Program-made: the position numbers and the translations under genes
In this document: in pieces, positions 2,611-54,400 of the stretch
How positions within the stretch are numbered: the stretch's first letter is position 1
How the letters are laid out: the number at the start of each line of letters is the position of its first letter
Notes under the pieces: model-generated
Database searches by the model: none
The model's input: the letters and a program-made list of their open reading frames with translations, nothing else
Told to the model about the DNA's origin: nothing
Assembly (NCBI RefSeq): GCF_032854445.1
Contig: NC_088307.1
Span: forward strand, 27,816,547 to 27,880,546
Direction: 5' to 3'
Length of the DNA stretch: 64,000 nucleotides
Source: Liolophura sinensis
Lineage: Eukaryota; Mollusca; Polyplacophora; Chitonida; Chitonidae

Positions 2611-5600
2611 ATGGACAGACAGAACACAAGTAACAAACGTGCGATTCTAGCAGCTGGTGGAGCGAGTTTGCTGACAGCATTCGTTGTAATAACCGTGGTT
2701 ATCTCCCTTTACTACGGCACTTACATATGTCAAGCCAGGAATACACCTAAAACCGAGGTAAGAGATGTTCTGATGGGATAAATATTTTCAAAACAAAAAG
2801 GTAACACACTTTCGCCTCTATTAATATCAATAACGTTTTGAGCTAGTTTAGTTAACCTCTACACCTCGGATTGACTAGCCTCTAGTCTTGGATTTAGGGG
2901 GAATTTACCAAGGAAACTCCTTCACCAGCTGCGCTTTCCCGATACACACCATGGAAACTCCTTCACCAACTGCGCTTTCCCGTTACACACGAAGGAAACT
3001 CCTTCACCAGGAAGGATTTCCCATTACACTCTTTCACAAACGTCAAGCTGTCTTAATAAAACGTACGTAGTATGTGTTTTACAAATCATTCAGGTAGTAA
3101 GGCCAAAGAGACTTTCGAGTTCTCTAGTGTCTTAAGTCCAGTGGAATGCCTGAGTTTACAGTTGACACGGCTGAACGTGTTATTTCAGATAGCAATAGCT
3201 AGAGATAATCTCAAACTTCACATCAGTTTGATCCAGAACCCTGTAGGACATTCCAAGTCAACCAAGTTACAGTAATTTGCTGGATGACGTCCTCGGCGAG
3301 GGTCGATATTTTTTCTATAGTCAAGGACCGATGTAATCACCCTGATGTCTGGAGACTGTCTCCTGTCGAACGGCAAACGAGCTCATGGAACTGGGTCCAA
3401 GACTTGCCTACGAACTGAAGACTGAAGTGTATATCATAGAAGTCATGATTTCAGACAAGAAATCGCCGACCGTTGCGTAAATGAAATTGATTTCAGTTAT
3501 TTGTTTGCTATATTCGAATTGATATAAAATATTTCATTTAAATGATGACTACAGCAGAAACTTAAATCCCATTAACATTCCCTAAAAACAGTAGGATCAA
3601 AGGCATGGTTCGGGTTCCAAATTTTGAGTGCAAGCTATTCACCCATATGTTTTAATACAGATTTTTAAATCCGTCGTATTAAGAGGACATTTTTTCTATT
3701 TTATCAATTATCTTGGGTTCATTTACTTTCAGAAATTCTTCTTGATTATTTCGGAGTCCCAATCCACGGGAAAGGTCGAGGTGAAGGACACCGAGAGGGT
3801 GATCATAACGGAAACAAGGACACCCAATCAGACACTCCATGACACCGTGGCTCTACAGGACTTCAACAGGGTAAAGTGTCTTGTAATAAGAAGCACGTCC
3901 TACCATAATTCTCTTGAGTTCAAATCAAGGCCCTCGTCGCTCGGCTGTAGCTTGTTGGGAGGCTTGTTAGACTTCTTTTGTAGGTAAATTAAACAAAGGT
4001 TATATCCGTAAATTCAACATTTACCTCCGTAGTCCGTTAAAAACGTATATCATAGAATGCACACCGGACGATTTCTTTATGGCCATACTAATGAATGCAC
4101 GCCGGACTGGTTTTTTTTATGGCCATACTAATGAATGCACACCTGACGGTTTTTTTGTGGCCATACCAATGAATGCGCACCGGACGATTTCTATAAGGCC
4201 ATACCAATGAATGAACACTGGAAGATTTCTTTATTGCCCTACCAATGAATGCACACCGGACGATTTCTATAAGGCCATACCAATGAATGCACACCGGACG
4301 ATTTCTTTATGGCCATACCAATGATTGCAAACTGTAACATCGAAACCACTATTAGTTCATGTTTAAGGACTGAATGTATTTAATTTTCTCTCCCAGAAAT
4401 TACAAGCCATAAAAGACCTTGGCAGGAACGAGTGTTTCATCTTCACTCTGGATATCCAGTTCGAGGAGGCTAAGGCAACGGCCCAGAGCAACGAAGTAAG
4501 TGTAAATAAATAAGATCGTATAATATTAAAGAAATTACTTAAATATAAGCGTCAAGTTAGACATTTGAAAGGTATTTGGAAACCTCGACCGAGAGAAACG
4601 TTTTTCTATGGCGGCGGTCATTTGTGCTTGTAAGTAGCAAGCGTAGAGAGCGGAACATACGCTGCCATGTCTATGTCTCGGGATAAAACACTCTGTATTA
4701 TGCACATATGTATATTGGTTTGATTTCCAGACAGCGTTTGACCTTGAAAACTACGACACTCGGACTACAGTGAGATCAAAGGAGACTATCCCTTTTCAAC
4801 TTGCCGAGCTAGCCCTAGGTTCTCAGGTGGTGGAATTCTGCAGAAATCTGCCTATATACTGGCTGACGGACGCCAAAGGCTCAGGTGCGTTTTCCACAGT
4901 CATCGAATTGCCAGTACATATCCCACCCGTGTGACAAACCTGTGTGAATTTATCCAAAGTGAATGAATTGAATGAAAACAAAGGCTAAAAATATTGTTCC
5001 CTTATAGATAAAAAATACAAACAAAAAACATATTTTTAAGAAACACTACCTGTTTCTCATTTTGCATTTCCAAAACTTGAAGATTGACTACGTTCAAGAA
5101 AGTGTTAAATTTTGAGGACAAAGACAATCTCAACTATGGAACAGAAGCGCAATTTTCTGCCCTATGCTTTCTTGGTTATTGTGACACCACAATAAAAGAC
5201 CTAACCATCACTCGTGATTCTTTCATATAATTTTGATCAATTCAGTTTGTATCTTATTAACTAGTTTCAGTTGCCATCGTTAGATGGACAGATGTTTATT
5301 CGAATTCTCTCATGCACTATCACACTTCTTCTTACCAAGATAAAGCTGAGGGCAACCCATGCAAATAAATATCTAAATAAATAACACGTGAGATTCCCCA
5401 ACAAGGAGTTCCAGCTGTGACTGAAGATGACAGCTGTTGAAACCAGGACTGAAACTTAATATATATGAAAATCACAAAAACAGTCAATCAGTTCATTCTT
5501 TCTTTCATCTAACAGTCCAGACATGATAATCCATCTACATGTGTTCATTTATTTCATTAGTGTTTTATCATTTTAAAATTACATGCATATGTTTAGAAAT

Positions 5601-6217
5601 ATTTACTTATTTCATTGGTGTTTAACGGTGTATTCAAGAATAGCTTGTAAAAATAATCCAAGTTTTGTGTGAATACGGTGTAAAATTCGATGAATACGAT
5701 GAAAGGATATTTTCACTAACCGTTCATGGTCACCGACAATGTAAGCGCCTTTACTTATGGAGGTGACTTACAACGTTGCGATTACTAGACAATCTTGAGG
5801 TTTTCATCCAGTGTATGAAAACAGTACTGTTAAAGTTTAGCCTCATCCCCCCCCCCCCCCCCCATTGGTCCTTTCACACTTTCATAAGTCTGGGTCAGCA
5901 TTTATCACAATGCTTGAAACTTTTAGAATCAACCTATGAATTCATTGAAAGAAAAGGGAAGCTGACATGAACAAGTTGAATTAAAGGTTTTAGCTTGACA
6001 TTTACATGACAAAGTTTAACTTCAAGATTTTCTGTCCAAAATTTGAGCTGAGCAAGTGCTGTTTGGTAGTATGGAAACGAGGGCACAACCAACCAGCTGT
6101 AAACCTTATTCATTGTGAACTCTTGTTGTATCATCCACAGACAATGTACGAGTACGAAGACAAAAGATCAAGATCAAGATCAAGAAGGACAAAATCAAAA
6201 TAAAGGTTAAATTCTAG
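2611..6217 (+). CDS. BRICHOS-domain precursor with cationic C-terminal peptide; candidate antimicrobial peptide gene
   Basis: I assemble five coding exons: 2611-2757, 3733-3870 (or from 3757, same frame), 4397-4495, 4731-4884 and 6141-6217. All introns are GT-AG with matching phases (0,0,0,1), giving 204 aa. Residues 12-36 are a hydrophobic signal-anchor after KR, so a type II membrane or secretory precursor is expected. A BRICHOS domain spans about 64-175 and shows the family's hallmark Asp (D92, in LQDFNR) and two Cys (C108 in NECFIF, C165 in EFCRNLPIYWL). Exon 5 then gives a furin-like RVRR (183-186) and the 18-residue end QKIKIKIKKDKIKIKVKF, with nine Lys and one Asp. In known BRICHOS precursors the domain chaperones a beta-prone C-terminal segment that is released by cleavage. 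Annelid arenicin-type antimicrobial precursors of about 200 aa have this layout. The antimicrobial function is inferred. The peptide has no cysteines, unlike arenicin. Confidence 0.8.
2911..3035. repeat. Three 41-bp tandem units in intron of the BRICHOS gene
   Basis: Units start near 2912, 2953 and 2994 and each carries GGAAACTCCTTCACCA. The third unit decays after about 20 bases. The array lies in the intron after the signal-anchor exon. Confidence 0.7.
4051..4330. repeat. 39-bp minisatellite, about 7 units
   Basis: Repeats of GGCCATACCAATGAATGCAC followed by ACCGGACGATTTCTTT run just upstream of BRICHOS exon 3. Because 39 is a multiple of three, the minus strand stays open as a repetitive reading frame, which I do not take as a gene. 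Confidence 0.8.
6141..6217 (+). CDS. Last coding exon of the BRICHOS gene: cleavage site and KI-repeat peptide
   Basis: The acceptor is TTGTATCATCCACAG. The exon joins in phase 1 to the exon ending at 4884, and the split codon gives Asp180. It encodes DNV, the RVRR cleavage motif, the 18-residue lysine/isoleucine peptide and a TAG stop. The strand regularity rests partly on a 6-base direct repeat (ATCAAG x3). Reading the exon one frame off gives an RS-rich string, but only the phase-1 join continues the BRICHOS frame and ends cleanly. Confidence 0.75.
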
Positions 6218-6374
6218 TTGCCCTTGATGAACATCTGATGCCATCGAAGATAAACCGTCAAACTGGCTTACCTGTAATAACCGAAGTATGTGTCTACGTA
6301 CCGAGCGAACAATCCTCTAAAGTCTTCACGCCTTAACTAACTGTTTTACCTGGTTTTGTATTCAACCAACGACA

Positions 6375-6380
6375 AATAAA
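6375..6380 (+). terminator. Polyadenylation signal AATAAA, BRICHOS gene
   Basis: This canonical AATAAA lies about 160 bases after the TAG stop of the BRICHOS gene. It is the first good signal downstream and fits a short 3' UTR. Confidence 0.5.
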
Positions 6381-8539: not shown

Positions 8540-8998
8540 AATTGCTGTATATACTGGTACTGATAAAAGTACCGTCAAGCACGGTGTACAAGAATGGGTT
8601 GTATATACTGGTACTGATAAAAGTGCCGTCAAGCACGGTGTACAAAAATGGGTTGTATATACTGGTACTGATAGAAGTGCCCCCAAGCACGGTGCACAAA
8701 AATGGGTTGTATATACTGGTACTGATAGAAGTGCCGTCAAGCACGGTGTACAAAAATGGGTTGTATATACTGGTACTGATAGAAGTGCCCCCAAGCACGG
8801 TGCACAGAAATGGGTTATATATACTGGTACTGATAGAAGTGGAGCCAAGCACGGTGTAGAAAAATTGGTTGTATATACTGGTACTGATAGAAGTGCCGTC
8901 AAGCACGGTGTACAAGAATTTGTTGTATGTACTGGAACTGATAGAAGTGCCCCCAAGCACACTGTACAGAAATGGGTTGTATATACTGGTACTGACAG
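8540..8998. repeat. 54-bp minisatellite, about 8.5 units
   Basis: The unit contains TTGTATATACTGGTACTGAT and AAGCACGGTGTACAAAAATG and repeats with few changes. The period is 18 codons, which keeps repetitive frames open on both strands. I treat it as a satellite. Confidence 0.9.
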
Positions 8999-9395: not shown

Positions 9396-9705
9396 AGCAT
9401 CAACTAGAATTCATCTAACTTGGTTAAATGTTATTTATAAAAATAGGTTGACACACTAATTGTTTTGGTTTGTGTACATTGACATTCAGGTGGTAGGGTA
9501 ATCCTGTCCAAGCCACGAAAAGCTCCACGCAAAATTCAGGCAGAGAGTTTAAAAACACATATTATCAAAAGAATAATGTAGAATAGTTCCATCTCTGAGG
9601 AAGAATACAAAAATAATCTTTCCACACAGCTTTGTGAGAATCATCACAAAAACCGTCCCAGAATTTTCAAATTAAATGCTTTGATTTACGTTTGATGTTA
9701 GGAAT

Positions 9706-10245
9706 GTCAAATCCCCATCAACAACCCTGGTCTCAGTTACTGTCTAATCCCCATCAACAACCCTCATCACAGTTACTGTCTAATCCCCATCAACAACCCT
9801 GGTCTCAGTTACTGTCTAATCCCCATCAACAACCCTTTTCACAGTTACTGTCTAATCCCCATGAACAACCCTGGTCACAGTTACTGTCTAATCCCCATCA
9901 ACAACCCTGGTCACAGTTACTGTCTAATCCCCATCAACAACCCAGGTCTAAATTACTGCCTAATCCCCATCAACAACTCTGGTCACAGTTACTGTCTAAT
10001 CCCCATCAACAACCCTGGTCACAGTTACTGTCTAATCCCCATCAACAACCCTGGTCACAGTTACTGTCTAATCCCCATCAACAACCCTGGTCACAGTTAC
10101 TGTCTAATCCCCATCAACAACCCTAGTCTCAGTTACTGTCTAATCCCCATCAACAACCCTGGTCACAGTTACTGTCTTATCCCCATCAACAACCCTGGTC
10201 ACAGTTGCTGTCTAATCCCCAGCAACAACCTTGGTTACAGTTACT
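9706..10245. repeat. 36-bp minisatellite, about 15 units
   Basis: The repeated unit has the form CCCCATCAACAACCCTGGTC / ACAGTTACTGTCTAAT. Units adjoin directly with no unique spacers, so it is not a CRISPR array. The 12-codon period gives two long open frames (PHQQPWSQLLSN and a frame-shifted version). Neither has a start context, splice site or unique sequence that would support a gene. Confidence 0.92.
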
Positions 10246-17224: not shown

Positions 17225-18968
17225 ACCCTGTGAGCTCTCTGGCCCATATACACCATGTCCTCTACAGCCTACATACACTATGTCCTCTTCCGCCTATATA
17301 CACTGTCCCCTTCACCCTGTATAACTTGTGACCTCTACCGCTTATACACCGTGTCCTCTACAGCCAATTTACGCAGTGTCCTCTACCGTCTATATACACT
17401 GTGTCCTCTACAGCATATATAACCTGTGACCTCTATCGCCCATATACACCGTATCCTCTACAGCTTATATGCACTGTGTCCTCTGCCGCCTATATACTCT
17501 GCACCCTGTGTCCTCTGCCGCCTATATACACTGTACCCTGTGTCCTCTACAGCCTATATACACTCTATCCTCTACAACCTATATACACTCTATCCTCTAC
17601 AGCCTGTATACCCAGCGTCCTCTACAACCTATATACTCGGTGTCCTCTACCGCCTATGTACAGCATGTCCTCTACAGCCTATATACATTGTGTCCTCTAC
17701 CTTGTATGTACCCAGTATCCTCTACATCGTATAAACGCTATGTCCTCTACAGCCTACGATTTATTCATTTATTTAGTTATTTATTTATTTATTTATTTGA
17801 TTAGTGTTTTACGCGGTACTCAAGAATATTTCACTTATTCGACGGCGGCCAGCGTTATGGTGGGTGGAAACCGGGCAAAGCCCGGAGAAAACCCACCACC
17901 ATCCGCAGGTTGCTGTCAGACCTTCCCACGTACGGCCGGAGAGGAAGTCAGCAATATACACTGTGTCCGTTACTGTCTCTATACCGCCTATATACACTGT
18001 ACCCTGTGTCCTCTACTGACCCGTCCTCTCCATACCGCCTATATACACTGTACCCCGTGTCCTCTACTGCCCTGTCCTCTCCATACCGCCTATATACACT
18101 GTACCCCGTGTCCTTTACTGCCGTGTCCTCTCTATACCGCCTATATACACTGTACCCCGTGTCCTCTACTGCCGTGTCCTCTCTATACCGCCGATATACA
18201 CTGTACCCCGTGTCCTTTACTGCCATGTTCTCTCTATACCGCCGATATACACTGTACCCCGTGTCCTTTACTGCCGTGTCCTCTCTATACCGCCTATATA
18301 CACTGTACCCCGTGTCCTCTACTGACCCGTCCTCTCTATACCACCTATATACACTGTACCGCGTGCCCTCTACTGCCCTGCCCTCTCCATACCGCCTATA
18401 TACACTGTACCCCGTGTACTTTACTTCCGTGTCCTCTCCATACCGCCTATATACACTGTACCCCGTGTCCTTTACTGCCGTGTCCTCTCTATACCGCCTA
18501 TATACACTGTACCCCCGTGTCCTCTACTGACCCGTCCTCTCTATACCGCCTATATACACTGTACCCCGTGTCCTCTACTGCCCTGTCCTCTCCATACCGC
18601 CTATATACACTGTACCCCGTGTCCTTTACAGCCGTGTCCTCTCTATACCGCCTATATACACTGTACCCCGTGTCCTCTACTGACCCGTCCTCTCTATACC
18701 GCCTATATACACTGTACCCCGTGTCCTCTACTGCCGTGTCCTCTCCATACCGCCTATATACACTGTACCCCGTGTCCTTTACTGCCCTGTCCTCTCCATA
18801 CCGCCTATATACACTGTACCCCGTGTCCTTTACTGCCGTGTCCTCTCTATACCGCCTATATACACTGTACCCCGTGTCCTTTACTGCCGTGTCCTCTCTA
18901 TACCGCCTATATACACTGTACCCCGTGTCCTGTAATGCCGTGTCCTCTCTATCCCGCCTATATACAGT
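17225..18968. repeat. Large minisatellite: irregular part plus about 19 units of 51 bp
   Basis: The distal part (about 17960-18968) repeats a 51-bp unit with CTATACCGCCTATATACACT and GTACCCCGTGTCCTCTACTG. The proximal part (17225-17757) consists of shorter, older variants. A family A SINE interrupts it at 17760-17955. The 17-codon period leaves a 526-codon open frame across array and SINE. Because the frame runs through a transposon and has matching open frames on the other strand, I reject it as a protein. Confidence 0.92.
17760..17955 (-). mobile_element. Family A SINE inserted in the 51-bp array, minus strand
   Basis: TTTATTTATTTATTTGATTA is followed by the core in reverse complement, as far as the GTACGGCCGGAGAGGAAG segment. 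The head is missing. Different repeat architecture on either side suggests the homogenised array expanded only on the distal side of the insertion. Confidence 0.88.
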
Positions 18969-21280
18969 GTGGCCATGGTGATCCTCCATCACCATGTAAT
19001 CTAAGGTTCGAATCCAGCTCACAATGCTTCAAGACCGATTTTATGTCGACAGTTTTGCCAGCTGTACTTTTTTTCATCCATCTCAGTGTCGCCGTGTTAT
19101 CGAAATATGCTTTATTCAGTTACTGATTTTTAATTTTACTTAAGATTAAATTTAAAGAACTTAAATGTTAGATTACACTGCAGCGTAGATGTCATAAGAT
19201 TTGTTTTCCCCGTTTTCTTGCTCCACACATGTCATTGTAGAAATGAGTACGACATGAAAGGCCAGTGAATTAAAATAAATCAAGAAATCAGTCTTTCTTC
19301 AGACATTTGCTTTATGTTGGAATGCTCGTGGCCGCAATCGTCATTTGTTCCAGGCTCGTACGGATTTGCGTTAAAACTTGGTTCTACCATTGTTTTCCCG
19401 AATTATTAATTTACAAACATCCGATTTCCCTGCAAATATTAACTTTATTCAGCGCCTTTATGTGCAGTATATATACGTGGAATAATTGAGACAACAAATT
19501 TACGGCAGTTACATTGAAACATAGGATTGGTCAATGCTCTCCTTAACGTTGAAAGCCAAGTCGACTGATACACGCTGGGTTATAGAGCCCTTAAACTGTG
19601 CCGTAAAATCGATGCGAGTAACAACTAGAAATGACAAACACAGACAGATACCGAAATGTGGCCAATTGCATTTTGATGTGAAACTAATACCGCTGATGTC
19701 CTCCTTCAGGAATTCATGTCAACTAATACCTAAAGGGCAAATAACAAGCCCATCCTATCTGACAATCTCTTGTCCATGAACATTCATGAGCCGACCAATT
19801 CAATATTTCGACGATATCAGTCTCTTAGCTGTATTGGATAGTACGTGAAAATCGAATTTAGCTGGGACTGATAACTACTTAACAGTCCACAGGCTGTTAG
19901 CTAAACGCCAAACTATTATGCAGATTTGCAGAACGGCTCTTGTCCTAACGGTCGGCACAGTCACTGGTAAAACTCTGGAAACATCGTTCTCGCGGAGTCC
20001 TCAGCTCGTTCTTCGGTAACTAATTTCTCTTCTGTCATCATATTTTGGCATTGGTTGTATGGCCTGCCGACGGCACACTAATAGAGTTGGCTTTGTTTCT
20101 GGTTTATGCTCTCGTTGACGACTATTGTATTCTACCAGCCAGGCGCATTTGTGGACATAAGCATCGGATGACCGAAGTAGTCATGGACTAACTAAAGTGC
20201 TGGCTATGGTTTGTAATGAACTATGGAAACATTTCAAAGACATTGCTTGGAAACCACTTTATTTGGATAGACGAGATTGTGTTTATTGCTCTCTTAATTT
20301 GATGCGGGGAAAGCGCTGTTGCAAATGGTGGAATGTTTCTTTAAGGTTTATGCCCCTGGTGAGGGCTTGCCATTAAATCGCTACTAACGGTGGACGAAGT
20401 TTCTCGTAGCCTGTGTTCTGTTCCTAGCGCTGCGAGTTCTGGAGATAATGAACTTAAAGTGAAGGTCAGCGTGTTTTTCTGTTACGGGTTTTGGCATCCG
20501 AAGTCAGTGTCTGTCGTGTGGAATACGAAATATACACTGAAGAGGAATGTTACGATGAAGCGGCTTTATGTTCAGCTCTTGTCGGCGTTTGCCCTACGAG
20601 AACTGAAGCTTACCGGGTAAACCTGATTAGCAAGATGTCACTTCGCCTGACACAAAAGAGACAAATGAGTTTTGACTAGGTGGGTGTTCTAACCGTGTAG
20701 AATGGACTTTGGTGGCTTCGTTGATGGACAAACGGGTTTTCTGCTTCCCATAGATATTCTCCACTCAGCTGTCACAACTCATTCGATCATTCGCTACAGA
20801 GACGCGCACAGATATAACATGGAGTTGGACGATTTATGAACCTTGCCTTATTTTGTGGGGTTTTCTGACCTAAATGTAAATTAGTGTAAAGCACCACAGG
20901 ATTTTTTGCGAGACTCTTTTCTCCGTAAAGAAAGCATACTGTACTGCTACCGTATCCTTCCTCTAACAATCTTTACTTAAGGCGAAGTGCTTTCCAGAAT
21001 TCATAATTCCATATTTATTTACTCAACCGAACTGTTGTAGAATCATTGTAATGTAGATGGTGGACATGTAACGTTTCAGAGGCTTTGGATTGATCTAAAG
21101 CCGTGTCTTGCTGGAAAGACGTTGGAAACCATTGTGAAATTGTATACATTTGAAACTTAGTGTTTATCGCTAACCCTGCATGAGTGAAACTTTGGACCTG
21201 TATGAAATGTTATATGCATGTGAAACGTTTGGACGTTTAAATTCGACAGAAAATCAACCATTATTTGAACAGTAGCAGAC
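18969..21280. other. Upstream region of the potassium channel gene; no gene seen
   Basis: A tRNA-like B box, GGTTCGAATCC at 19005-19015, marks an old SINE scrap at the end of the minisatellite. Several frames of 60-80 codons occur at 19300-20680, but none has a clear start plus splice sites. The promoter of the channel gene should lie here or further upstream, and I cannot place it. Confidence 0.35.
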
Positions 21281-24200
21281 ATGGATAGCAAGTACTTTTG
21301 GGTTTTATTGGCCTGGGTTTTCCTGTATTTGTTGGCCGGCGGGGCGGTATTCCAGAAGCTAGAGGAACAGAACGAGGAAGATGTCCAGTTGGCCGTATCT
21401 GACAAAATTGACCGGTTCTTAGGTAAGTACTTGTACAAAGTCTAACGTCCGACATTAGTGTACTTAGCTGTAACTTACATGTTGTGACTGCCGATTATCG
21501 ATGCTACGCCAGAAGGTTGTCTGGTGGAATAATGCGGCTTTTTGCCATCGGTACATTTTTGTTATAATTTGACTTGTTTACATAATTCTGCCGCATCCGT
21601 GTTGCTCCTGGCAGTTCTCAGTGGAAATTCCTCTCACGATTAGATTCAACAAAACACGAGCTGAGGAAAATCTCATCGCGGTCCGTTTCACTGTTAATGT
21701 TAGCCAGCTAATCAGTGCTGCTGCTACGGACATGGTATAATTCTGAACATAACAAATATATTGGAGCCTACCTGTAGCAAATTGTAGGGACAGAGTTCTG
21801 GTGGTTGTGGTGTAGGTACAATATCACTAGGTAAACTGTATTCTCCAATGTTACTTTGATGTAACTGGATAGTGTGTCTTATCTGGTGTCAGTTTTATGT
21901 AACTGGATAGCGTGTCTTATGTGGTGTCAATTTTATGTAACTGGATAGCGTGTCTTATGTGGTGTCAGTTTTATGTAACTGGATAGCGTGTCTTATGTGG
22001 TTTAAGATTAATGTAACTGGTATCGGTGTCTTATGTGGTTTCAGATTAATGTAACTGGTGTGGGTGTCTTATCCCGTGTCAACTTTATGTAACTAGTCAA
22101 GGTGTCCTATGTAGTGTCAGTTTGATCCAACTAGATGGGGTGTATTTCTGCTGTCAGTTTGATGTAACCGTGTGCGGTGTTTTGTCTAATGCCAGATTCA
22201 TGTAACAGTGGGGGCGTTTTATCTAATGTCAGTTCGATGGAACAGGGCAGTGTGTTTTATCCGAAGTCAGTTTGATGTACCTGGATAGTGTGTCTCACCT
22301 GATGTCGGTTTGACGTAACTGTGTGGGGTGTTTTGTCTGATGTCAGTTTGACGTACCTGGAGGGTGTGTCACATTTGATGTCAGTTTGACGTAACTGTGT
22401 GGGGTGTTTTGTCTGATGTCAGATTGATGTAACTGTGTGGGTTTTTTTCTCTGATGTCAATTTGATGTAAGGGTTTGCGGTGCTTTGTCTCATATCAGTT
22501 TGATGTACCTGGTTAGTGTGTATTATCTAATGTCGGATAGATGTACTTAAATGGTGTGTTTTATCTGATATCAGTTTGATGTAACCGTGTGCAGCGTTTT
22601 GTCTCATATGAGTTTGATGTACCTGTATTGTATTTTATATTTGATGTAAGTTTGATGTACCTGGACGGTGTGTGTTATGTGATGTCAGTTTGATGTACCT
22701 GTATGGTGTGTCCCATTCGATGTTTGTTTGATGGACCTGGGTGGTGTGTTTCATCTCATGTCAGTTTGATCGACTTGGATAGTGTCTTTTTTTGTCTCAT
22801 GTCAGTTTGATGTATGGTGTGTCACATACAATGTCGTTTTGATGAGCTTGAATGGTGTGTTTCTTCAGATGTCAGTTTGATGTACCTGTAAGGTGTGTTT
22901 AGTCTGATGTCAGTTTGGTGTACCTGTAAGGTGGGTTTGATCTGATGTCAGTTTGGTGTACCTGGATGGTGTGTTTGATCTGATGTCAGTTTGATGTACC
23001 TGGATGGTGTGTCTCATCTGATGTCAGTTTGGTGTACCTGTATTGTGTGTTTGATCTGATGTCAGTTTGGTGTACCTGTAAGGTGTGTTTAGTCTGATGT
23101 CAGTTTGGTGTACCTGGATGATGTGTCTCATCTGATGTCAGTTTGGTGTACCTGGATGATGTGTTTGATCTGATTTCAGTTTGATGTACCTGGATGGTGT
23201 GTCTCATCTGATGTCAGTTTGATGTACCTGTAAGGTGTGTTTGATCTGATGTCAGTTTGATGTACCTGTATGGTGTGTCTCATCTGATGTCAGTTTGGTG
23301 TACCTGTAAGGTGTGTCTCATCTGATGTCAGTTTGATGTACCTGGATGGTGTGTCTCATCTGATGTCAGTTTGGTGTACCTGGATGGTGTGTCTCATCTG
23401 ATGTCAGTTTGGTGTACCTGTATGGTGTGTTTGATCTGATGTCAGTTTGATGTACCTGGATGGTGTGTCTCATCTGATGTCAGTTTGGTGTACCTGTGAG
23501 GTGTGTCTCATCTGATGTCAGTTTGGTGTACCTGTAAGGTGTGTTTAGTCTGATGTCAGTTTGGTGTACCTGGATGGTGTGTCTCATCTGATGTCAGTTT
23601 GGTGTACCTGGATGATGTGTTTGATCTGATTTCAGTTTGATGTACCTGGATGGTGTGTCTCATCTGATGTCAGTTTGATGTACCTGTAAGGTGTGTTTGA
23701 TCTGATGTCAGTTTGATGTACCTGTATGGTGTGTCTCATCTGATGTCAGTTTGGTGTACCTGTAAGGTGTGTCTCATCTGATGTCAGTTTGATGTACCTG
23801 GATGGTGTGTCTCATCTGATGTCAGTTTGGTGTACCTGGATGGTGTGTCTCATCTGATGTCAGTTTGGTGTACCTGTATGGTGTGTTTGATCTGATGTCA
23901 GTTTGGTGTACCTGTATGGTGTGTCTCATCTGATGTCAGTTTGGTGTACCTGTGAGGTGTGTCTCATCTGATGTCAGTTTGGTGTACCTGTGTGGTGTGT
24001 TTGATCTGATGTCAGTTTGATGTACCTGTATGGTGTGTTTGATCTGATGTCAGTTTGATGTACCTGGATGGTGTGTCTCATCTAATGTCAGTTTGGTGTA
24101 CCTGAATGGTGTGTCTCATCTGATATGAGTTTGGTGTACCTGTGAGGTGTGTCTCATCTGATGTCAGTTTGGTGTACCTGGATGGTGTGTCTCATCTGAT

Positions 24201-27200
24201 GTCAGTTTGGTGTACCTGGATGGTGTGTCTCATCTGATGTCAGTTTGGTGTACCTCTATGGTGTGTCTCATCTGATGTCAGTTTGGTGTACCTGGATGGT
24301 GTGTCTCATCTGATGTCAGATTGATGTACCAGGATAGTGTGACTAATCTCATGTTAGTTTGATGTGACTATGTGAAGTGCAGTTTTTGATATAACCTCAT
24401 GGGGTGTCACGTTTGGTGTCAGTATATTGTAAGTGAGTCCGGTATATTAGTTTGATACACCTGTCCGTCATGTCATGTATGCTGGAATTTTAAGTACTTC
24501 TTAACAAGTGATATGTAGGAAATTTTAGTTCATGTTACTGCATTTCTCTAGCCTGATTCTGCTTAAGCTGTTGTGCTTTGGGGAATGTCATCTAGTACTG
24601 GTTAAGAATAGATAAAATCAAACCCTGACTGAGGGAAATTGGCAAGAGATTACGAGTGACCATTTGCCAACTACCACATCGTCGTCATTGCTCTGGTTTT
24701 ACTCTTTATGCAAGTCTTTTATTGTAATGTACATGGTCCGAACAGAACGAAAGTTTGGGACACCAAATTTAGTGTCATTGACTGAGTGGAGTGTCATGTC
24801 TGCTGCCGGCTTATACTGTGACCGGAGTGGGTGTTTGGTTTAAGTAGATTGTGTCTATGTCTGTATATTGTACCAGATTGGGTGGTATGTTTGGTGCAGT
24901 TGTACTTTGGGTGGGATGTAACGACCATGTCAGTGTACCATGAACAGATGGATGTCATCTAAGGTGTACATAATTATTAATTTATTTACTTATTTATTTA
25001 TTTATTTATTTGAATGGTGTTTTAAGCCATACTCAAGAATATTTCACTTATACGACATCGGTCAGCATTAAGGTGGGAGAAAACCCAGGATTATCCGCAG
25101 GTTTTTGGCAAACCTTCGCGCGTACGGATGTGTAGACACATTGTGCTTGTATTTTCTCTAATAAATAAAAACATTTGCACATTTTTTTCAGGCGACCACC
25201 CATCCGTAAACGACTCAGCACTCATAGATTTTTTAAAGATAATAATCAAGAACTGCAACGTAATGGAGAGGATACTGAGGGATGATGTCGACTCGTCTTG
25301 GGGATTCCTTCAGTCTTTGTGCTTTTGTGCGTCCGTTCTTACAACAATAGGCAAGTATGTCATGACGTAGCACGTGATGAAGAGGATACTTAGGGATAAT
25401 GTCGACTCGTTCCGGGGATTCCTCTAGTCTTTGTGCTTCTGTGCTTCCGTTCTAACAACAATAGGTAAGTATGTCATGACGTACAATGTGATGGAGAGGA
25501 TACTGAGGGATGATGTCGACTTGTCCTGGGGATTCCTCTAGTCTTTGTGCTTTTGTGCGTCCGTTCTTACAACAATAGGTAAGTATGTCATGACGTACAA
25601 TGTGATGGAGAGGATACTGAGGGATAATGTCGACTCGTCCCGGGGATTCCTCTAGTCTTTGTGCTTCTGTGCTTCCGTTCTAACAACAATAGGTAAGTAT
25701 GTCATGACGTAAAACGTGATGGAGAGGATCCTGAGGGATGATGTCGACTCTTCCTGGGGATTCCTCCAGTCTTTGTACTTCTGTGCGTCCGTTCCTACAA
25801 CAATAGGTAAGTATGTCATGACGTACAATGTGATGGAGAGGATACTGAGGGATGATGTCGACTTGTCCTGGGGATTCCTCTAGTCTTTGTGCTTTTCTGC
25901 GTCCGTTCCTACAACAATAGGTAAGTATGTCATGACGTAGCACGTGATGGAGAGGATACTGAGGGATAATGTCGACTCGTCCCGGGGATTCCTCTAGTCT
26001 TTGTGCTTCTGTGCTTCCGTTCTAACAACAATAGGTAAGTATGTCATGACGTAAAACGTAATGGAGAGGATACTGAGGGATGATGTCGACTCTTCCTGGG
26101 GATTCCTCCAGTCTTTGTACTTCTGTGCTTCCGTTCCTACAACAATAGGTAAGTATGTCATGACGTAAAACCTAATGGAGAGGATACTGAGGGATGATGT
26201 CGACTCTTCCTGGGGATTTCTCTAGTCTTTGTGCTTCTGTGCGTCCGTTCTTACAACAATAGGTAAGTCTGTCAAGACGTAGAACGTGATGGAGAGGATA
26301 CTGAGGAATGATGTCGAATCTTCCTGGGGATTCCTTCAGTCTTTGTGCTTCTGTGCGTCCGTTCTTTCAACAATAGGTAATTATGTCATGACGTACAATG
26401 TGATGGAGAGGATACTGAGGGATAATGTCGACTCGCCCCGGGGATTCCTCCAGTTTTTGTGCTTCTGTGCGTCCGTTCTTACAACAATAGGTAAGTATGT
26501 CATGACGTAAAACGTAATGGAGAGGATACTGAGGGATGATGTGGGCTCGTCTTGTGGATTCCTCCAGCCTTTGTACTTCTGTGCTTCCGTTCTTACAACA
26601 ATAGGTAAGTATGTCCTGACGAAGAACTTGATGGAGAGGATACTGAGGGATGCTGTCGACTCGTCTTGGGGATTACTCCAGCCTTTGTACTTCTGTGCTT
26701 CCGTTCTTACAACAATAGGTAAGTATGTCATGACGTAGAACGTGATGGAGAGGATACTGAGGGACGATGTCGACTCGTCTTGGGGATTCTTCAAGCCTGC
26801 GTGCTTCTGTGCTTCCGTTTTTACAACAATAGGTAAGTATGTCATGACGTAGAACCTTTCTGATGAGGATGAGGGTGGAGAATCCTCCAGTCCCTCTGCT
26901 TCTGTGCCTTCGTTCTACATGAGTGATTCAATGTTGTGTGACGTAGACTACATGTAGACAATAAGGCTCAATCTAACATAGTCTATAATATTAATGCATA
27001 TTGTTTAGTGTAATTGTACCCTGCTCATGTCACTGTATATTGTTCAGTGTAATTGTACAGTGCTCGCTGCTACTGTATATTGTGCCTTTACTGTTCATTG
27101 TTACTGTCTGTTGTTCAGTGTACTTGTATCGTGCTCACTCTTACAGTATATTGTACATTGTAATTGTACAGTACTCTCTGTTACTGGATATTGCGCCTTT

Positions 27201-30200
27201 ATACTTCAGTGTTATTGTACTTTACGCAGTATTGCTATTCATTTTGCAGTGTTAAACTATATTGTTCACTGCTACTCTTTGCTATCCAGTGCTGTTGTGT
27301 ATTGTATACCCTCTGTTTGGTCTTTGGCTGTTTGATTAGAAAGTTTACTGTGTGTGTGGAAAAGCAGAAAAAATCTACGGATCGTTTCACTGTCCCTCAG
27401 TAGTCAGTAGGAATTAATTAATTAAGTGTGAGTGTAACGCGATTGAATCCGGTGTAATATTTGGTGTCATGTATTAGTCTAGGGCAATTTCTAGTGTCAT
27501 GTCTGGTGTTATACATGATGCCATGTCTATTGTCATAAGAGGTGTCCATCTTGAATTATGTCTAGCGTCACGTTTGATATCTTGTATGGTGTCTTTAGCG
27601 AACCAGCTTTGTAAATGTGACGGAAGCTACACTGCATTTCTAGTCGAAGTTGCGACATAAAATTCATATGTTTAAGACATTTTGTGTAGTATTGGGAGGG
27701 GGTGGGGGGCTCGGTGGCTCAGTTGGTCAGCGCAGCATAATGACCCAGGAGCCTCTCACCATTGCGGTCGTTGTGAGGTTCAAGTCCAGTTCACGCTGGC
27801 TTCCTTTTCGGCCGTACGTGGGAAGGTCTGCTGATGGTCGTTGGTTTCCCCCTAGCTGTGCCCGGATTCCATCCACCATAGCGCTGGTCGCCGTCGTATA
27901 TGTGAAATATTATTGAATATGGCGTAAAACACAATCAAATAAATAAATAATAATAAATTGTGTAGCATTGGAGGTGCAGCCTGTTAACAGAAAACACAAA
28001 ATACAATAAAGGCTTCTGTCTACCAATTTTGTTTTGCATTTACATTGTTTTGATGCATCAAAGTAACCTTATTTTTATGTATAAAAAGCATTCATATTGA
28101 CGCAAGTGTTAGTTTCTATGAACATCGGGTTGTGGGGATTTATAGCCGTGCACCCCATCACTGACTTCTCTCTAATTGAGCAAAAACAAGGAAATATTTG
28201 AGGTCTGACAATCTACATTAACGTCACAAAAACTTCATAGCTTTATTGGACACGCGGTAATAGCGTGTAAAACTGTTATTGATGTGGATGCTATTCGATT
28301 ACATTTTTGAAGGCTAGAGCGTTTAATAGACAATTCGTCGTACTAAGGATTAAACAGATCACCTGATCATATCAAAGTTTGCTGGCCTGAGGCATTTAGG
28401 TGCAGAAGCGTTTTTTTTTTTTTTACTGCGTACATTTTTCAAATATTACGCCTGGCGATCGTCAATGGTTTTTCGGGGACCTGGCGATCGTCGATGGTTT
28501 TTCGGGGACATGGCGATCGTGGATGGTTTTTCCGGGGCTTGGCGATCGTGGATGCTTTGTCGGGGACCTGGCGATCGTCGATGCATTGCTCAGGATACCC
28601 CATTTCCCTCTATTCGTAACCCTGACCGTCACTGGAAGAAGGCAATAAAACAATCCTCTGACCCTATCCGCTATGGAAACTATGGAATAAAAACTTCTAC
28701 ACAACGACCGCCATCTTCTGAATCATTGAGCCTCTCGTTGACTTGGCGCTATATTGCAGTGTAACAGCGATCCACTGACTGCTAACCAATGAGGTCACAG
28801 ATTTGAATTCAGCAGAAAGTTAGCGGGATCTGTTCGGTTTAACAATGGGTAGGGCTTTGCTAGGCTCGGTTTCTTCACCAATCAGGTAGCCCGCAGTGTC
28901 GTTAAATAAGTAATGCAAAGTATCATGTGTTCGACGTCAAAAAACATTCATGCAAATAAATGAACAAAATTTCCACAGCAATGTTTTCAATTTCTGCTTA
29001 AGGGTACGGCCATCGGGCTCCTGGGACGAGCATGGGAAGGATTGTTTGTGTTTTTTACGCTCTCTTTGGAATTCCTCTCATGGTTCTACTGCTAGACGAA
29101 CTTTCCAAGAAACTCCAAGGTATATATTTAGTGATGGAGGCGGTAAAGTTGTGCAGAGGACGTCCGCGAGCCAATCGTCTGCTCAGCTGTTTCCTGGTTA
29201 TCTCCCTTGGAGTACTTCTCATGTTTATTGTGCCGGCGACTGTATTTTCCCGGGCGGAGGGCTGGTCGTTTGTGGAGGGAGTTTACTTCTGCTTTATCAC
29301 TCTGAGTACGATCGGATTTGGAGACTATCTAGTAGGTAAGAATATCACCATGGCTAACGCCTGGTTTGCCAGAATCTCGTTGGAGGTACGGGATCATAGA
29401 TTAACATTTTCTGTGTTTGTTTGTTTGTTTGTTTGTTTGTTTGTTTTTCACAATGACTAATATTGATCATAGCCTAGCTATATTTAGTCATATATCTCTG
29501 CATTTGATTCTTGTTTTTCTCTATTTAACTTCGTCTTACGGACAATATGAAGGCCAAGCACATAACACAGTACCACATATATCCCTTCTTCTGGTACTTG
29601 ACAAACCTACTGATGTAAATCCTCAGGCCAGCTTGTAAAATCTGGATTTCTACACCTCAATGGTCCATAAACACGCTTTAACCTATTAAAGTTGTCTGGT
29701 TTGGATGGAAAGAAATACCAACATGGTTACAGCAATCCATAGTTGATTCTCGAAATAACGGCCTTTTCACCGTAGGGAGAAAACAATGACCATGATAATC
29801 CAGAAAGACCATGGGGTCAAATGCTGACTCAGTTGGCATCAGCCTGGGAGAGTTCATTCACCGAGCATAATAATAAAATGTTCACAACGTATCACATACG
29901 TCACAACATGGGTGACTAGTCAAGTCAAGCTTCCGGTTGTAGCCATTTATTTCCATGGACAAGTGCTTAGACAGTCTTTGTGTTTAGTTTTGTTAGTATC
30001 TAGTGTGTTTATTAAACACAAATGTATCGTCTGTTACGGCACAGTAGACACTGCTTGCAATGGAAACTAAAACAGGGTGGTACTTGTAGGAATACGGACG
30101 CCTGGGAAGCTCACAGCCTGGTGGATTGAGGTCTATAAGATAGGCATGTTCGTCTGGATGTTGTTTGGACTGGCCTACCTCGCTTTGATTATCAAATCAC

Positions 30201-33200
30201 TTATGCTCTTCATTGATGACTGCATCCATCCTGGTTTTATGGCCACGCGTGTGGATATGGAGGTAAATCACAGTTGTCCACTATGAGATAGTGTACCATA
30301 ACAACAGCAATACGCTCTAATTTACGGCAAATTCGTCAGAATATTCGTCTAACTACATTCAGTCGCATCTACACGGTGCCATTTTACACATATATAAATA
30401 TGTTTTTTAACTGGACCTACAAAAAATGAAATGAAACTAGTCTTCAGCAAGGTTTTGATTTCACACAGAACATTTTCAATCTGAACGTGGGATATTTGTA
30501 AATCTACCAATATCGGCGTGTGGGCTAGCAGCACCAGCTCTCATACTTGGTAAAGCGTGCCTGTATTATCTTAACCCAGTACTTGACACAGTCGATTGCA
30601 GTGGAACAGTACAATGGGTACCAACCACACTCCTCAAGGTTGTCATTCGGGATAATTTGCCCAGTTCTAAGCCACCGTTTACAGGCCATGTACTGGACCT
30701 GCTCTAGTTGTTCGCATCTTTGGAACCCTCACATCTCTACATAAGTATAGGTTTCACTTTGGCATCAAACAGCTTTAAAAAGCTACTCAAGGGCATATCA
30801 CCAATGTACCACATAGTAGGCCTACGAAGTATTTCTGTCAATACACGCTTGGCAGAATCAACAAGAATGGAAGTTGGAGACTAAGTTTAGAAGTAAAAGT
30901 TAATAGTAAATATTTGTAATAACTCATTACCTCCAGAGTGTCGTGTTTTAGTACTCATTTTTCGGAAGCACATAACCTACCACCCCTTCTAAATACAACA
31001 ACTTGTGTTTTAGAAATATTGACACTGAGATCCCATGTTTTACAATAGTCAGGGAGAATACACAACCGGTTCTGGAGGCAAATCGGTGATCTCAGTCGGT
31101 TTTTATACAATGACAATTTACGCCTCTGTGGTTCAGCGGGTTAGAACGCTAGCGCGGCGTAATGACCCAGGAGCCCCTCACTAATGCGGTCGCTGTGAGT
31201 TCAAGTCCAGTTCATGCTGGCTTCCTCTCCGGCCATACGTGGGAAGGTTTTCAGCAAACTGCGGATGGTCGTGGGTTTCCCTCCGGTTTCCTCACACCAT
31301 AATGCTGGTCACCGTCGCATAAGTAAAATATTCCTGAGTACGGCGCAAAACACCAATCAAATAAATAAATAAATACAGAGTATAAATATATATATAATAT
31401 ATATAATAAATAAATAAATAAATGAGAATAATAAAGGGTTTAACACACATCCTTGTCTTACTCCCACTGGGCATAAAAAATCGTTTTGTAAATTCTGCCC
31501 CTCTTCGTGCACATGTTTTCACCTCATTGTAAATTGTTCCCCACTGCGTACACATATTTTCACCTCTTTGTAAATTCTGCCCCACTGGGTACACATGTTT
31601 TCACCTCATTGCAAATTCCTCTGAGTCAATTCCCCAATTCTCCGTTCAATCCATAGCTAGAGGTAAGGAAAGGGAGCTTATTTACATTGACAGAATCAAA
31701 CACTTTCTTATAGTCGACAAAAGCTACATACATACATACAAGTTGCCCCATGCGTTTACATAGAGGTTTCTATATGCATGCATATAGTACGAAAATGTTG
31801 TCGGTTGTGCTATAACCTGTACTAAACCCTGCTTGAGATTCCGATATCAAATGTGAATTATCTGACCGGGTTGTCAACCGCTTGTTAATAATGCTTGTAA
31901 ATATTCTACCTAATATGCTTAGTAGGGCTATCCCCATGTAGTTCCCGGGATCAGTTTTGTCGCCGGTTTTAAATAAAGGGACAAGTATAGCAACTTCCCA
32001 TTCTTCAGGGAATTGACCATTTTGAAAAACATGATTGAACAACTTTATTATGTAGTCGTTTACTACTGTTGGTGCATTTTTGGTAGTATTCTCATAGCAG
32101 ATTATCTATGCCATGTGCTTTATTTGGTTTTAAGTTATGGATGACCTGGTTTAATTCCTCTTCTGGTATAGGGGCATCAAATAGAGCCTTTGTATAATTA
32201 TCGTGTACATAGTTGAAATTTGCGTCTGCTCCACTCAACCAGCCCTCAGCTGTGCTTGATGGCGATCGGAAAAAGTTGGTAAAGCAATCGTACCAACAGT
32301 CGATTGATGTGACCCTGGTTGTTTTTTTTACTCCGTGTATTTTTGATTACACTCCAAAACGTGTTAGAGTCAGTATTTAGCAGCAATTCAGTCAGGTAAT
32401 TCTGATAAGACTGTTGTTTGGAACGAGGTAATTCCTTGTCCTGTTTGCGTATATTACTGTACGCAGAGTAGTTATTGTCGCTTCTGTTTCTTCTGTACAC
32501 TTTCAAAACATATCTAGATTTGCTTTTTAGTGCTCTAAAATCTTTGCCCCACCAACTATTTTTCGAAACGATTTTCACTCTCTGCTGCACTGCCAATAGC
32601 CATCCCTATTCGCCTCTTGACCTGCCACAGAGTTCAGTTTCTCCTGAAATTCGTCTTGGCTGGTTGCCTCCCATTTATAACGTACGGGAGCTTTAATGGT
32701 GACCTTATGAAGATTCTGGTCTGATCTTCATGTCGATTCTAATAGACAGGTGCTTGGATTCAGCCCTATTATCTACTTCAACCTGACTTACACACGTGCG
32801 TACATTCTGGGATATAACACATTAGTCATTCACACTGGTCCCGTTGTAGCATAAATATATGAAGGTGTCAATAGGATCACCAGAATAATCACCATTTAGA
32901 ATTTCTTAGGTTTAAATTTTGCACAATCCAAGAAATGTTTTCCCGAATAAATTAATAGTTGTCTCCTGTGATGCCCTGTGACAGTCTGATGCATCCTCTA
33001 AAATAATGTATTTTAACCTAAAAGCGTTTGTACGGTGCACTGGTTGTCTGTTAACTTTTCCGGCGCTGAAGTCACCCAAAAGTAGGATGGCTGGTTCAGA
33101 ATCTATGTCATTCAAAATATTTGATTGGCGTTTTACACTCAATAACGTTTGTCTCCTAAAAGTTATCATGGCAGCTTGCGCCTTGAGGTGAGACATACAC

Positions 33201-51400: not shown

Positions 51401-54400
51401 CAATCTGTGCTTTTTTTTGTTTGGTTCTATCAGTATCGAGTAAATGATACGAGAATCCGAGATTGGCCGCGATTCAACTACCGCGGCTTGCTGGTGGACA
51501 CAGCGAGGCATTACATCCGGGTGCCTGTGATCTTAACGGTTCTGGTAAGGATTTATCTCCCTTTGATTGCTTGTGCGCACAAAAGCGATCCCCAAACACA
51601 GGATAACGCAACGCAGATCGCTGCAAATGCTGTGTTTTGCGGAATTTTGGTACAAAAGATCAAGAAAAAGGACATCATGCAGAAAGATGTAATAGTCTAT
51701 TTTTATTAGAGTTTTTCGCTCTTATCAAAAATATTACATTTAAACGATGACCCTCATCGTTGCCGCAGCTATTCGCCAGGTATATGTGATAAACCTCCTG
51801 ATTGAAAATTCACTGTTGAGCCAGACAGGGCTGGATTCGAACAAGCGACCTATTTCACCATGGGCCTGTCGTCTGCGGCATTTGAAGTATGACAAATACC
51901 TTATTTCATATCATCCATCCAACAACGCGCGTGATGAAAGTATTCAGAAACAAGCCATAACGCCGTTGTGTATAAGCATGGCATCAGTATTGTTCACATA
52001 AAACCTGAACAGGATAGTTTACTTGGTTATCTTTGAAACAATCACTTTAAAAATTTCTGTGGTTTTCAAATTTCAGTGTTTAAATTCAAATTTATCAGGA
52101 TAATCCTGAATGGGCATTCAATCGCTAGGACAAACGAGGTGTGGTTTAACACTTAGCCTTGAAGAAGCAGTATGTGTATTCTCTCGCTATCACTGAATGT
52201 GGCATAAGTGGAAGTTGCCAGTGGGAAAGTTAGTTAACAAAGCTTGGTTATTTAATCCGAACACTCTGAATTTCCCCACACAAACAGTGACAACCATTGT
52301 GAAAAAAAAATTGTTAAACATTGTTAAATCAAACATACAGATAAATAATCCTGCCTGTATGTTGTTTGTTTGCTTACAGGAAGCCATGTCTTACAACAAG
52401 CTGAACGTCTTCCACTGGCATATAGTGGATGACCAATCTTTTCCCTACGTCAGCAAGAAGTTCCCGGAGCTCTCCAATAAGGTTTTGTTGACAGCTGCTT
52501 ACTTCATCGCTGATATCTCGCTTGAAATCCCTTTTTCCTTTACGGTAGTTTTAATCTGTAATCTTACTGTTAATAATTTGTAATATAAAAGCGGAAAGAG
52601 AGTATAAACAAGTTTAAATTATTGGCTGACCTTGCCTTATATAATAAACAACAGTTAAAAAGTCAATGCCTCTATCTCACTTTTTAGAAAATACTTTTTG
52701 TTAATGTGATATAAGTTTTTCTCATTCAGTCATCGCCTGTCCAATTTCTTACAACCGTACAGTTCATCACTTTAGTTTTGTGGCGTATTGATAATTAGCG
52801 CTGTCGTCTGACTGACCACTGTTCGACGTTCCAGAAATCACCCAGAAACAAAATGGATGGGAATTGCGTAATAGGATTTTTTTCCAATAGTGAGGCGGTC
52901 AATCATTATGTTCTAAACTGTGGGAATCTAAACTTGGTTAATGCGAGCATTCCAGGCTACCAACATAACGTTCGCATTTCTCTTAATGGCTTGATCCTCT
53001 ACAGGAAAAAAACGTAGATCCTTTAGCAGTGTAGCTTGCTAATTCAGAGAAAACATGTTTTGGGAAAGCCACCGATTTTTTTTCACGAGGCTAGGTCCAT
53101 GCGGCTTCTAGAATGAAAGCTCCGTAGTTGGTTTAGCAGTTTGTGAACAGGATATATCGCTCACTACGCACTAATTATAATTATTTTCTGCAGATTAAGA
53201 CTTGCTATCTTATAGGGTGCGTACAGTCCCCACCATGTGTACACGCAAGCCGATGTTGCCAAAGTCATTGAGTTCGCCAGATTACGGGGTATTCGGGTGA
53301 TTCCGGAATTTGACACGCCGGGTCACACACAGTCCTGGGGGAAGGCATATCCGGGTAAGATTGTTTTGTGAGGAATATTTATTTATTCACTTGATGGCGG
53401 AGGCACTCATGAATATTAATTTTTATAGCGGGTTTGTATATTATAAGGCAAACTCGCGATCAACTGTCAAGCCTAACGACAACGCTTCAGTAGTCTAATA
53501 GTTAGAGCATCCGAATCGAAGTCGGGAGACACCGGGATCAAATCCGGGTCTGGTCATACCAAAGACTTTAAAAATGGTACTTGATGCTGCCTCGCTTGGC
53601 GCTAATCGCTGAGACGTCAGAGCAAGAAAGCATGAATGGTTGGCCCGGTGTTTTTATAATGTGGCTGGCTGGGGTGTCATGTCTGGTGTCTTCGGGATGA
53701 TACTTCAGTGTCGACAGCAATTTGACCGCATGGATTCGCCCTGCCGCAAGAAGACACATTATATGCACACACACTTAGTGACTCCTCGTCGTATTAGGCC
53801 TTTGGGTGAAAAAGTGTTAAGCACGACTTTAAACCCCAAGTATAGATACATATACATTCAAACCTAACGTTTTTGATTAAAAATCACGTGGTGAAGCGAG
53901 ATTTCGCATTGCAAGAACTTTACACGACGGACCGTAAAGTTTTGAAGGTGGGGAGAACTTCTTGACTGTTTTCTGGTGAAATACATCTCGTCGTTATGTC
54001 GATCGGTCTGCTACAAAGGAACACCGCCGTGATATGAAGGATTCGAGTTGATTGACTCTTTGTTTTTCTGTTTTGTTTCTTCTGCTAACAGAGTTACTCA
54101 CGCCGTGTTGGGTTGACAATCAACCCTTTCGTGACTTGTACGGGCTCGAAGGTCACGCAAGGTCAGAAAACATGGACCCCACCAAAAATCAAACCTTCGA
54201 GTTCATGAGGGATTTCTTCAGCGAAATCATCGAAGTGTTTAAGGATGAGTATATTGACCTGGGGATGGATGAGGCACACTATTACTGCTGGTAACATAAA
54301 TATGTCATAATTCATTTCCTTCATGCTCTGTCTGGTTTCTTCCCACCATAATGCTGACCGCCTTCGTATAAATAAATTGTCTTTAGGATGACCTTAAACA

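Follow-up and report, generated by a model that had tools for sequence, protein, structure and literature searches.

The genome of the chiton Liolophura sinensis encodes, at positions 2611-6217 (+) of the 64,000-nucleotide stretch analysed here (hereafter the window), a BRICHOS-domain precursor that ends in a furin-type site followed by a short Lys/Ile tail without cysteine. The gene is a member of a family that shares the gene plan, the BRICHOS domain and the cut-site motif, and in which the tail changes fast. The explanation that we favour, with modest confidence, is a family of BRICHOS-chaperoned, furin-released peptides that probably serve in host defence, the 18-residue tail of the window gene being an amphipathic antibacterial hairpin. 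An initial annotation, made from the letters of this DNA alone, had described a single gene of this kind; the exon plan, the cut site and the tail were confirmed, and the gene proved to be not a lone one but one of four tandem copies with further relatives.

Mechanistically, the precursor would be anchored in the membrane and followed, in order, by a linker, the BRICHOS chaperone domain, the furin-type site and a cysteine-free, beta-prone peptide carried on its own last exon. In the secretory pathway, the BRICHOS domain would keep the tail, which is prone to aggregate, in solution; cleavage behind RVRR by a furin-like convertase would then release the 18-mer. This peptide is proposed to fold on bacterial membranes as an amphipathic hairpin with its turn at KKDK and to kill or agglutinate the bacteria. 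Chaperoning and furin release of the tail are drawn here by analogy: in BRI2 a BRICHOS domain is described as holding a beta-prone client until its release by a convertase, and the like has been proposed for annelid peptides (PMC6780910, PMC9714404; here and below, papers on BRICHOS and on designed peptides are cited from the accessible parts of their texts).

The host is a marine mollusc, as the initial annotation had allowed for, and the assembly searched comprises 609,464,459 bases in 632 contigs; the species of this Liolophura genome was renamed L. sinensis by a correction (PMC12441733). In a splice model built from genomic DNA, five coding exons join in frame, as first annotated, into a protein of 204 amino acids plus stop, with GT/AG borders at all four introns and intron phases 0,0,0,1. 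Coding exon 1 (2611-2757, +) is in frame up to its GT donor and provides a short basic N-terminus and a hydrophobic stretch (about 2641-2730) that, judged by eye, agrees with the membrane anchor claimed earlier. Exon 2 (3733-3870, +), which recurs in all five related loci (L016 to L020), codes for the linker and the start of the BRICHOS domain, with D92 at 3859-3861. The BRICHOS core follows on exon 3 (4397-4495, +; C108 at 4433-4435), which measures 99 nt in 6/6 loci modelled, and the domain ends on exon 4 (4731-4884, +; C165 at 4839-4841, then LPIYWL), which closes in phase 1. Exons 2 to 4 are all bordered by AG and GT. Behind an AG acceptor in phase 1, the last exon (6141-6217, +) codes for DNV, the furin-type site RVRR (amino acids 183-186, 6149-6160), the predicted released 18-mer QKIKIKIKKDKIKIKVKF (6161-6214) and the stop codon; it has homologous counterparts in L016, L017 and L018 and a similar one in L020.

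A likely splice acceptor, ...TTTATTGACAG (2597-2610, +), precedes the start codon, and its AG stands exactly 6 bases 5' of the ATG in 5/5 loci compared. This suggests that a first exon without coding sequence lies upstream. A likely polyadenylation signal, AATAAA (6375-6380, +), lies 158 bases 3' of the stop; AATAAA or ATTAAA is also found at +128 to +155 in L016, L017 and L018, and at +39 and +162 in L020. Read on without splicing, exon 4 (open reading frame 4647-4934) gives a tail devoid of any dibasic site. Between 4884 and 9000, three candidate last exons passed the filter (at 5007, 5926 and 6140), and only the one at 6140 carries a furin-type site. Since the exon plan recurs in relatives, the model is more than a chance assembly of open frames, and the gene is confirmed as real at the level of genomic sequence.

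The predicted 204-residue protein matches the Pfam BRICHOS profile PF04089 with 33.1 bits against a cut-off of 25 bits (E 6.5e-8; amino acids 88-172, profile positions 6-91 of 91), the check that the initial annotation had proposed. D92, C108 and C165 stand at the positions it gave and are invariant in the four aligned intact proteins. With this profile match and the conserved Asp and Cys pair, the product is assigned to the BRICHOS superfamily. A Pfam BRICHOS search of the whole assembly returned no match, nor did it in 14 control genomes; as the domain is spread across three exons and the controls are equally silent, this result says nothing about absence.

Around the gene, two copies of a dispersed repeat, which resembles a tRNA-derived SINE, lie just upstream (1873-2129 and 2223-2476) and match several places of the L017 region in both orientations. 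Minisatellite arrays with units of 36 to 114 bases occupy 4055-4329, 8546-8995, 9705-10245, 17976-18970, 21848-24365 and 25257-26855, the first of them inside the BRICHOS gene, in the intron territory between exons 2 and 3. Further along the window are a potassium channel exon (29002-29460, +; Pfam Ion_trans_2 in two stretches, E 5.6e-19), which we read from its sequence as of the two-pore type, and an exon matching glycosyl hydrolase family 20 (52197-52583, +; beta-hexosaminidase-like, E 3.1e-11). Remains of mobile elements include a Tc3-type transposase helix (57428-57892, -; E 3e-8) and, below the Pfam cut-off, a weak match to reverse transcriptase (31770-32105, -; E 5e-4). Rfam gave no matches in the 64 kb.

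A protein search of the whole genome yielded 25 exon-level matches among the best candidates scored; as only these are scored, more distant relatives may exist. The matches define four tandem copies on scaffold C13, namely the window gene and, upstream of it, L016, L017 and L018, together with a more distant BRICHOS locus about 1.5 Mb from the window gene (L019, C13:29345000-29354000) and a gene on another scaffold, C8 (L020). One match on C6 (E 0.65, inside an open frame of 2794 amino acids) was taken as chance. Searching again with L020 gave 19 matches among the best candidates scored, all in loci already found, and when the last exon with its flanking sequence (window 6101-6300) was searched for at the DNA level, the four places hit were the four tandem copies.

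Intact models were obtained for the window gene (204 amino acids), L017 (203), L016 (209) and L020 (201), all four with phases 0,0,0,1. The BRICHOS profile scores above the Pfam cut-off in 5/5 proteins scanned, that is, these four and the partial L019. An R-X-[RK]-R motif precedes the tail in every intact model: RVRR in the window gene and L017, RGRR in L016 (and also in L018), and RKKR in L020. The last exon measures 77 nt in the window gene, 71 in L017, 89 in both L016 and L018, and 74 in L020, and all the differences are multiples of three. The stop codons of the window gene and L017 line up with each other immediately ahead of a 3' UTR that can also be aligned, and L016 and L018 each have a stop directly before a similar 3' UTR. 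L018 (C13:27783700-27792500) is probably a pseudogene, unless the assembly is in error, because it lacks the AG before exon 2 and its exon 4 is one base shorter, causing a frameshift. L019 retains exons 2-4 and a BRICHOS match; a search for a first exon as far as exon 2 and for a last exon downstream gave no last-exon candidate, a wider one for both within 25 kb listed 10 candidates, none of them convincing, and the locus looks incomplete.

The window gene and L017 are 90-98% identical in exons 1-4 and 83-93% in introns, and the tail stands out against this background. Exon 5 has 53 identical bases out of 68 aligned (78%), and the first 150 bases of the 3' UTR have 115 out of 120 (60 gapped). 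In a 3-kb alignment the tail shows 13 mismatches over 45 aligned bases, with 9 gapped, and is the most diverged 54-base stretch: none of 452 windows of that size reached its divergence, those with fewer than 40 aligned bases having been dropped. Its flanks are far closer, with 1/20 mismatches in the first 20 bases of exon 5, 5/123 in the 3' UTR (30 gapped) and 20/199 in the last 200 bases of intron 4. Aligned alone, the tail is identical at 34/51 positions (stop codon included), against 1098/1230 in intron 4 (Fisher p 2.4e-5) and 115/120 in the 3' UTR (p 1e-6). In the comparison with L016, alignable sequence stops within intron 4 at 5401 and restarts at 6236, 19 bases after the stop; inside this otherwise unalignable region, an island of 38 alignable bases covers the acceptor and the cut site. 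The fast tail is not seen in every pair, as exon 5 is identical at 86/89 bases between L016 and L018.

Ahead of the tail, the window gene and L017, its closest relative, differ by 15 replacement changes over 428 sites and 11 silent changes over 130 (p 0.030), and the same contrast holds between the window gene and L016 (p 0.009); from these comparisons the precursor is under purifying selection. Nei-Gojobori values for the tails were discarded as unreliable, given the few sites and the uncertain alignment. The tail divergence fits diversifying selection; recombination replacing the tail or its exon, or slippage in the AAGATC repeat, could produce a similar divergence.

It is highly improbable, in our judgement, that the last exon simply drifts or decays, the Lys/Ile run being a functionless product of hexamer slippage. 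This would accommodate the three AAGATC units that code for the first strand of the window tail, the already broken L018 and the seemingly incomplete L019. However, the window gene, L017 and L016 all preserve the reading frame, the stop, the cut site and the splice sites, the precursor is constrained as described above, and the tail diverges faster than the introns rather than at their rate; moreover, the window gene and L017 retain alternating patterns built from different residues.

The predicted tails themselves are QKIKIKIKKDKIKIKVKF in the window gene, QWHVKITISISITFQL in L017, DYIRIKGKIFGVRFVITIEW in L016 and GTIIIQYKNVLIVIRY in L020. None contains Cys, and their charges are +8, +1 (with one His), +2 and +2, respectively, behind proregions of -6, -4, -2 and -4. 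The window 18-mer begins with Gln and holds 9 Lys and 1 Asp, so the cysteine-free tail after RVRR and its charge are as initially annotated; the low charge of the other intact tails speaks against a simple new antimicrobial family. The best seven-residue hydrophobic moment at 170 degrees was equalled by 60/5000 shuffles for the window tail, 134/5000 for L017, 84/5000 for L016 and 2643/5000 for L020, and the alternation of polar and non-polar residues had shuffle p values of 0.017, 0.00025, 0.11 and 0.71 in the same order. Three of the four tails thus look like amphipathic strands by moment and two by alternation; L020 does so by neither, and has the highest mean strand score of the four (1.33). 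For the window tail the mean helix score (1.12) slightly exceeds the strand score (1.08), and the beta-hairpin that a released 18-mer may form is a prediction. As read from these translations, what is common to the family is a furin-type site followed by a short cysteine-free, hydrophobic or alternating tail; high charge is not a family trait, because the other intact tails carry only +1 to +2.

These properties bear on a self-assembling secreted peptide, whose tails would form beta-sheet fibres or a gel in mucus, cuticle, adhesive or radular matrix; antibacterial effects, if any, would come from the surface of the fibres. The low charge of the other tails leaves room for such a structural role, which we consider unlikely. 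The L017 tail, whose charge is just +1, alternates at 15/15 steps, BRICHOS domains often have clients that tend to aggregate (PMC9714404), and the window tail is close to the designed gel-forming hairpins MAX1I8 and M(Ile), of the form IKIKIKIK-turn-KIKIKIKI (PMC12940918). A structural role alone, however, predicts no such rapid change of the tail between tandem copies, and the alternation in L020 is no greater than its composition gives.

The likeness to designed hairpins, which the initial annotation had pointed out, was borne out for these isoleucine analogues of MAX1. In MAX1, MAX1I8 and M(Ile), Lys alternates with Val or Ile in two strands around a turn, as is predicted for the window tail, and antibacterial surfaces of MAX1 gels are reported (PMC12940918). 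The designed peptides are synthetic and amidated, count 20 residues and turn on D-Pro-Pro, whereas the chiton tail is gene-encoded, starts with Gln and has KKDK at the putative turn. A bolder version, to our mind quite unlikely, would make the tail an independent, MAX1-like chiton hairpin, solubilised by BRICHOS, freed by a protease and assembling in sea-water salt into an antibacterial gel or film; the tail would then be a fast-changing cassette, arising partly by hexamer slippage, behind a conserved chaperone.

The closest natural parallels are the BRICHOS peptides of annelids (arenicins, alvinellacin, capitellacin, abarenicins and UuBRI-21), whose precursors share the layout of the chiton gene, and spoon worms have membrane-anchored precursors of this kind (PMC9410094). 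The layout expected of BRICHOS-related antimicrobial peptides (hydrophobic N-terminus, here recognised by eye, BRICHOS proregion, basic convertase site and C-terminal peptide) is found in the chiton precursor, and the window tail, at +8, agrees with the cationic mature peptide also expected. The disulfide-stabilised hairpin of the older definition is absent, with no Cys in 4/4 tails; this element was dropped for HfBRI-20/-23/-28 (PMC10745061).

The likeness to the annelid peptides, as first suggested, holds for the precursor layout; the tails come from a mollusc, lack Cys and cannot be aligned to those of annelids. Among 12 comparisons with arenicin-1, arenicin-3 and alvinellacin, the best (L016 with arenicin-1) was equalled by 44/2000 shuffles, which is not significant after correction, and the window tail was equalled by 357-1136 of 2000. 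Preproalvinellacin of Alvinella is encoded by at least six genes, with five introns and the peptide on the last exon, and diversification there affects the chaperone and spares the peptide (PMC5431198); the chiton family is the reverse, with a varying tail and a kept BRICHOS domain. The absence of Cys, put forward earlier as a novelty, is real in the tail and yet not new in kind, because HfBRI-20 and HfBRI-23 of the annelid Heteromastus filiformis are predicted cysteine-free amphiphilic beta-hairpins that their authors compare to designed (VR)n peptides (PMC10745061). Like the chiton tail they stand behind a BRICHOS domain and a dibasic site; the comparison is one of descriptions.

The same layout recalls ITM2B (BRI2), a type II membrane protein with a BRICHOS domain and a furin-released C-terminal peptide, as proposed for the chiton precursor (PMC6780910, PMC9714404). 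A BRI2/ITM2-like membrane protein whose tail, like Bri23, is cut off in housekeeping or signalling with no antimicrobial role is in our view very unlikely. Its type II layout, BRICHOS domain and furin-type site are those of ITM2B, and no other BRICHOS chain turned up among the PDB matches. No PDB match was significant, however: the ITM2B match is weak and partial (27 residues; E 0.13 with the profile and 1.1 with the single protein), and similarity to ITM2/BRI among the PDB chains compared was confined to part of the BRICHOS core. The chiton tail lacks the Cys pair, and tandem expansion with a tail hypervariable between copies is unexpected for a conserved signalling peptide.

Host defence was judged the most likely role of the predicted released peptide because of the tandem copies, the fast-changing tail behind a constrained precursor, the pairing of an acidic proregion with a tail of +8, and the parallel in annelids. 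Against it count the +1 to +2 charges of the other tails, the moment of L020, which is no better than that of its shuffles, and the non-significant alternation in L016 and L020. NF-kappaB-like sites in five upstream stretches amounted to one, at the window gene only and inside a repeated element, and gave no support.

Two reviews describe BRICHOS antimicrobial peptides as restricted to polychaetes (PMC9756803, PMC6780910). A BRICHOS domain-containing protein is among the up-regulated transcripts of a mussel (PMC4203926), and molluscs are named, with no molluscan example in the text consulted, as one of several groups in which BRICHOS-domain and other peptides came to light (PMC12466427). In the texts consulted, no molluscan BRICHOS peptide was found described; other papers, subscription ones among them, may hold more. 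What appears new is that the host is a mollusc, that the tail is hypervariable and that it resembles designed hydrogel peptides of the MAX1 type. Should the tail be released and active, peptide defence based on BRICHOS would extend to molluscs, and a single chaperone scaffold with very different tails would offer a natural test of the range of BRICHOS clients. As a natural peptide without disulfides, the 18-mer would be the counterpart of gel-forming hairpins made by design, which makes both gel formation and antibacterial action directly testable.
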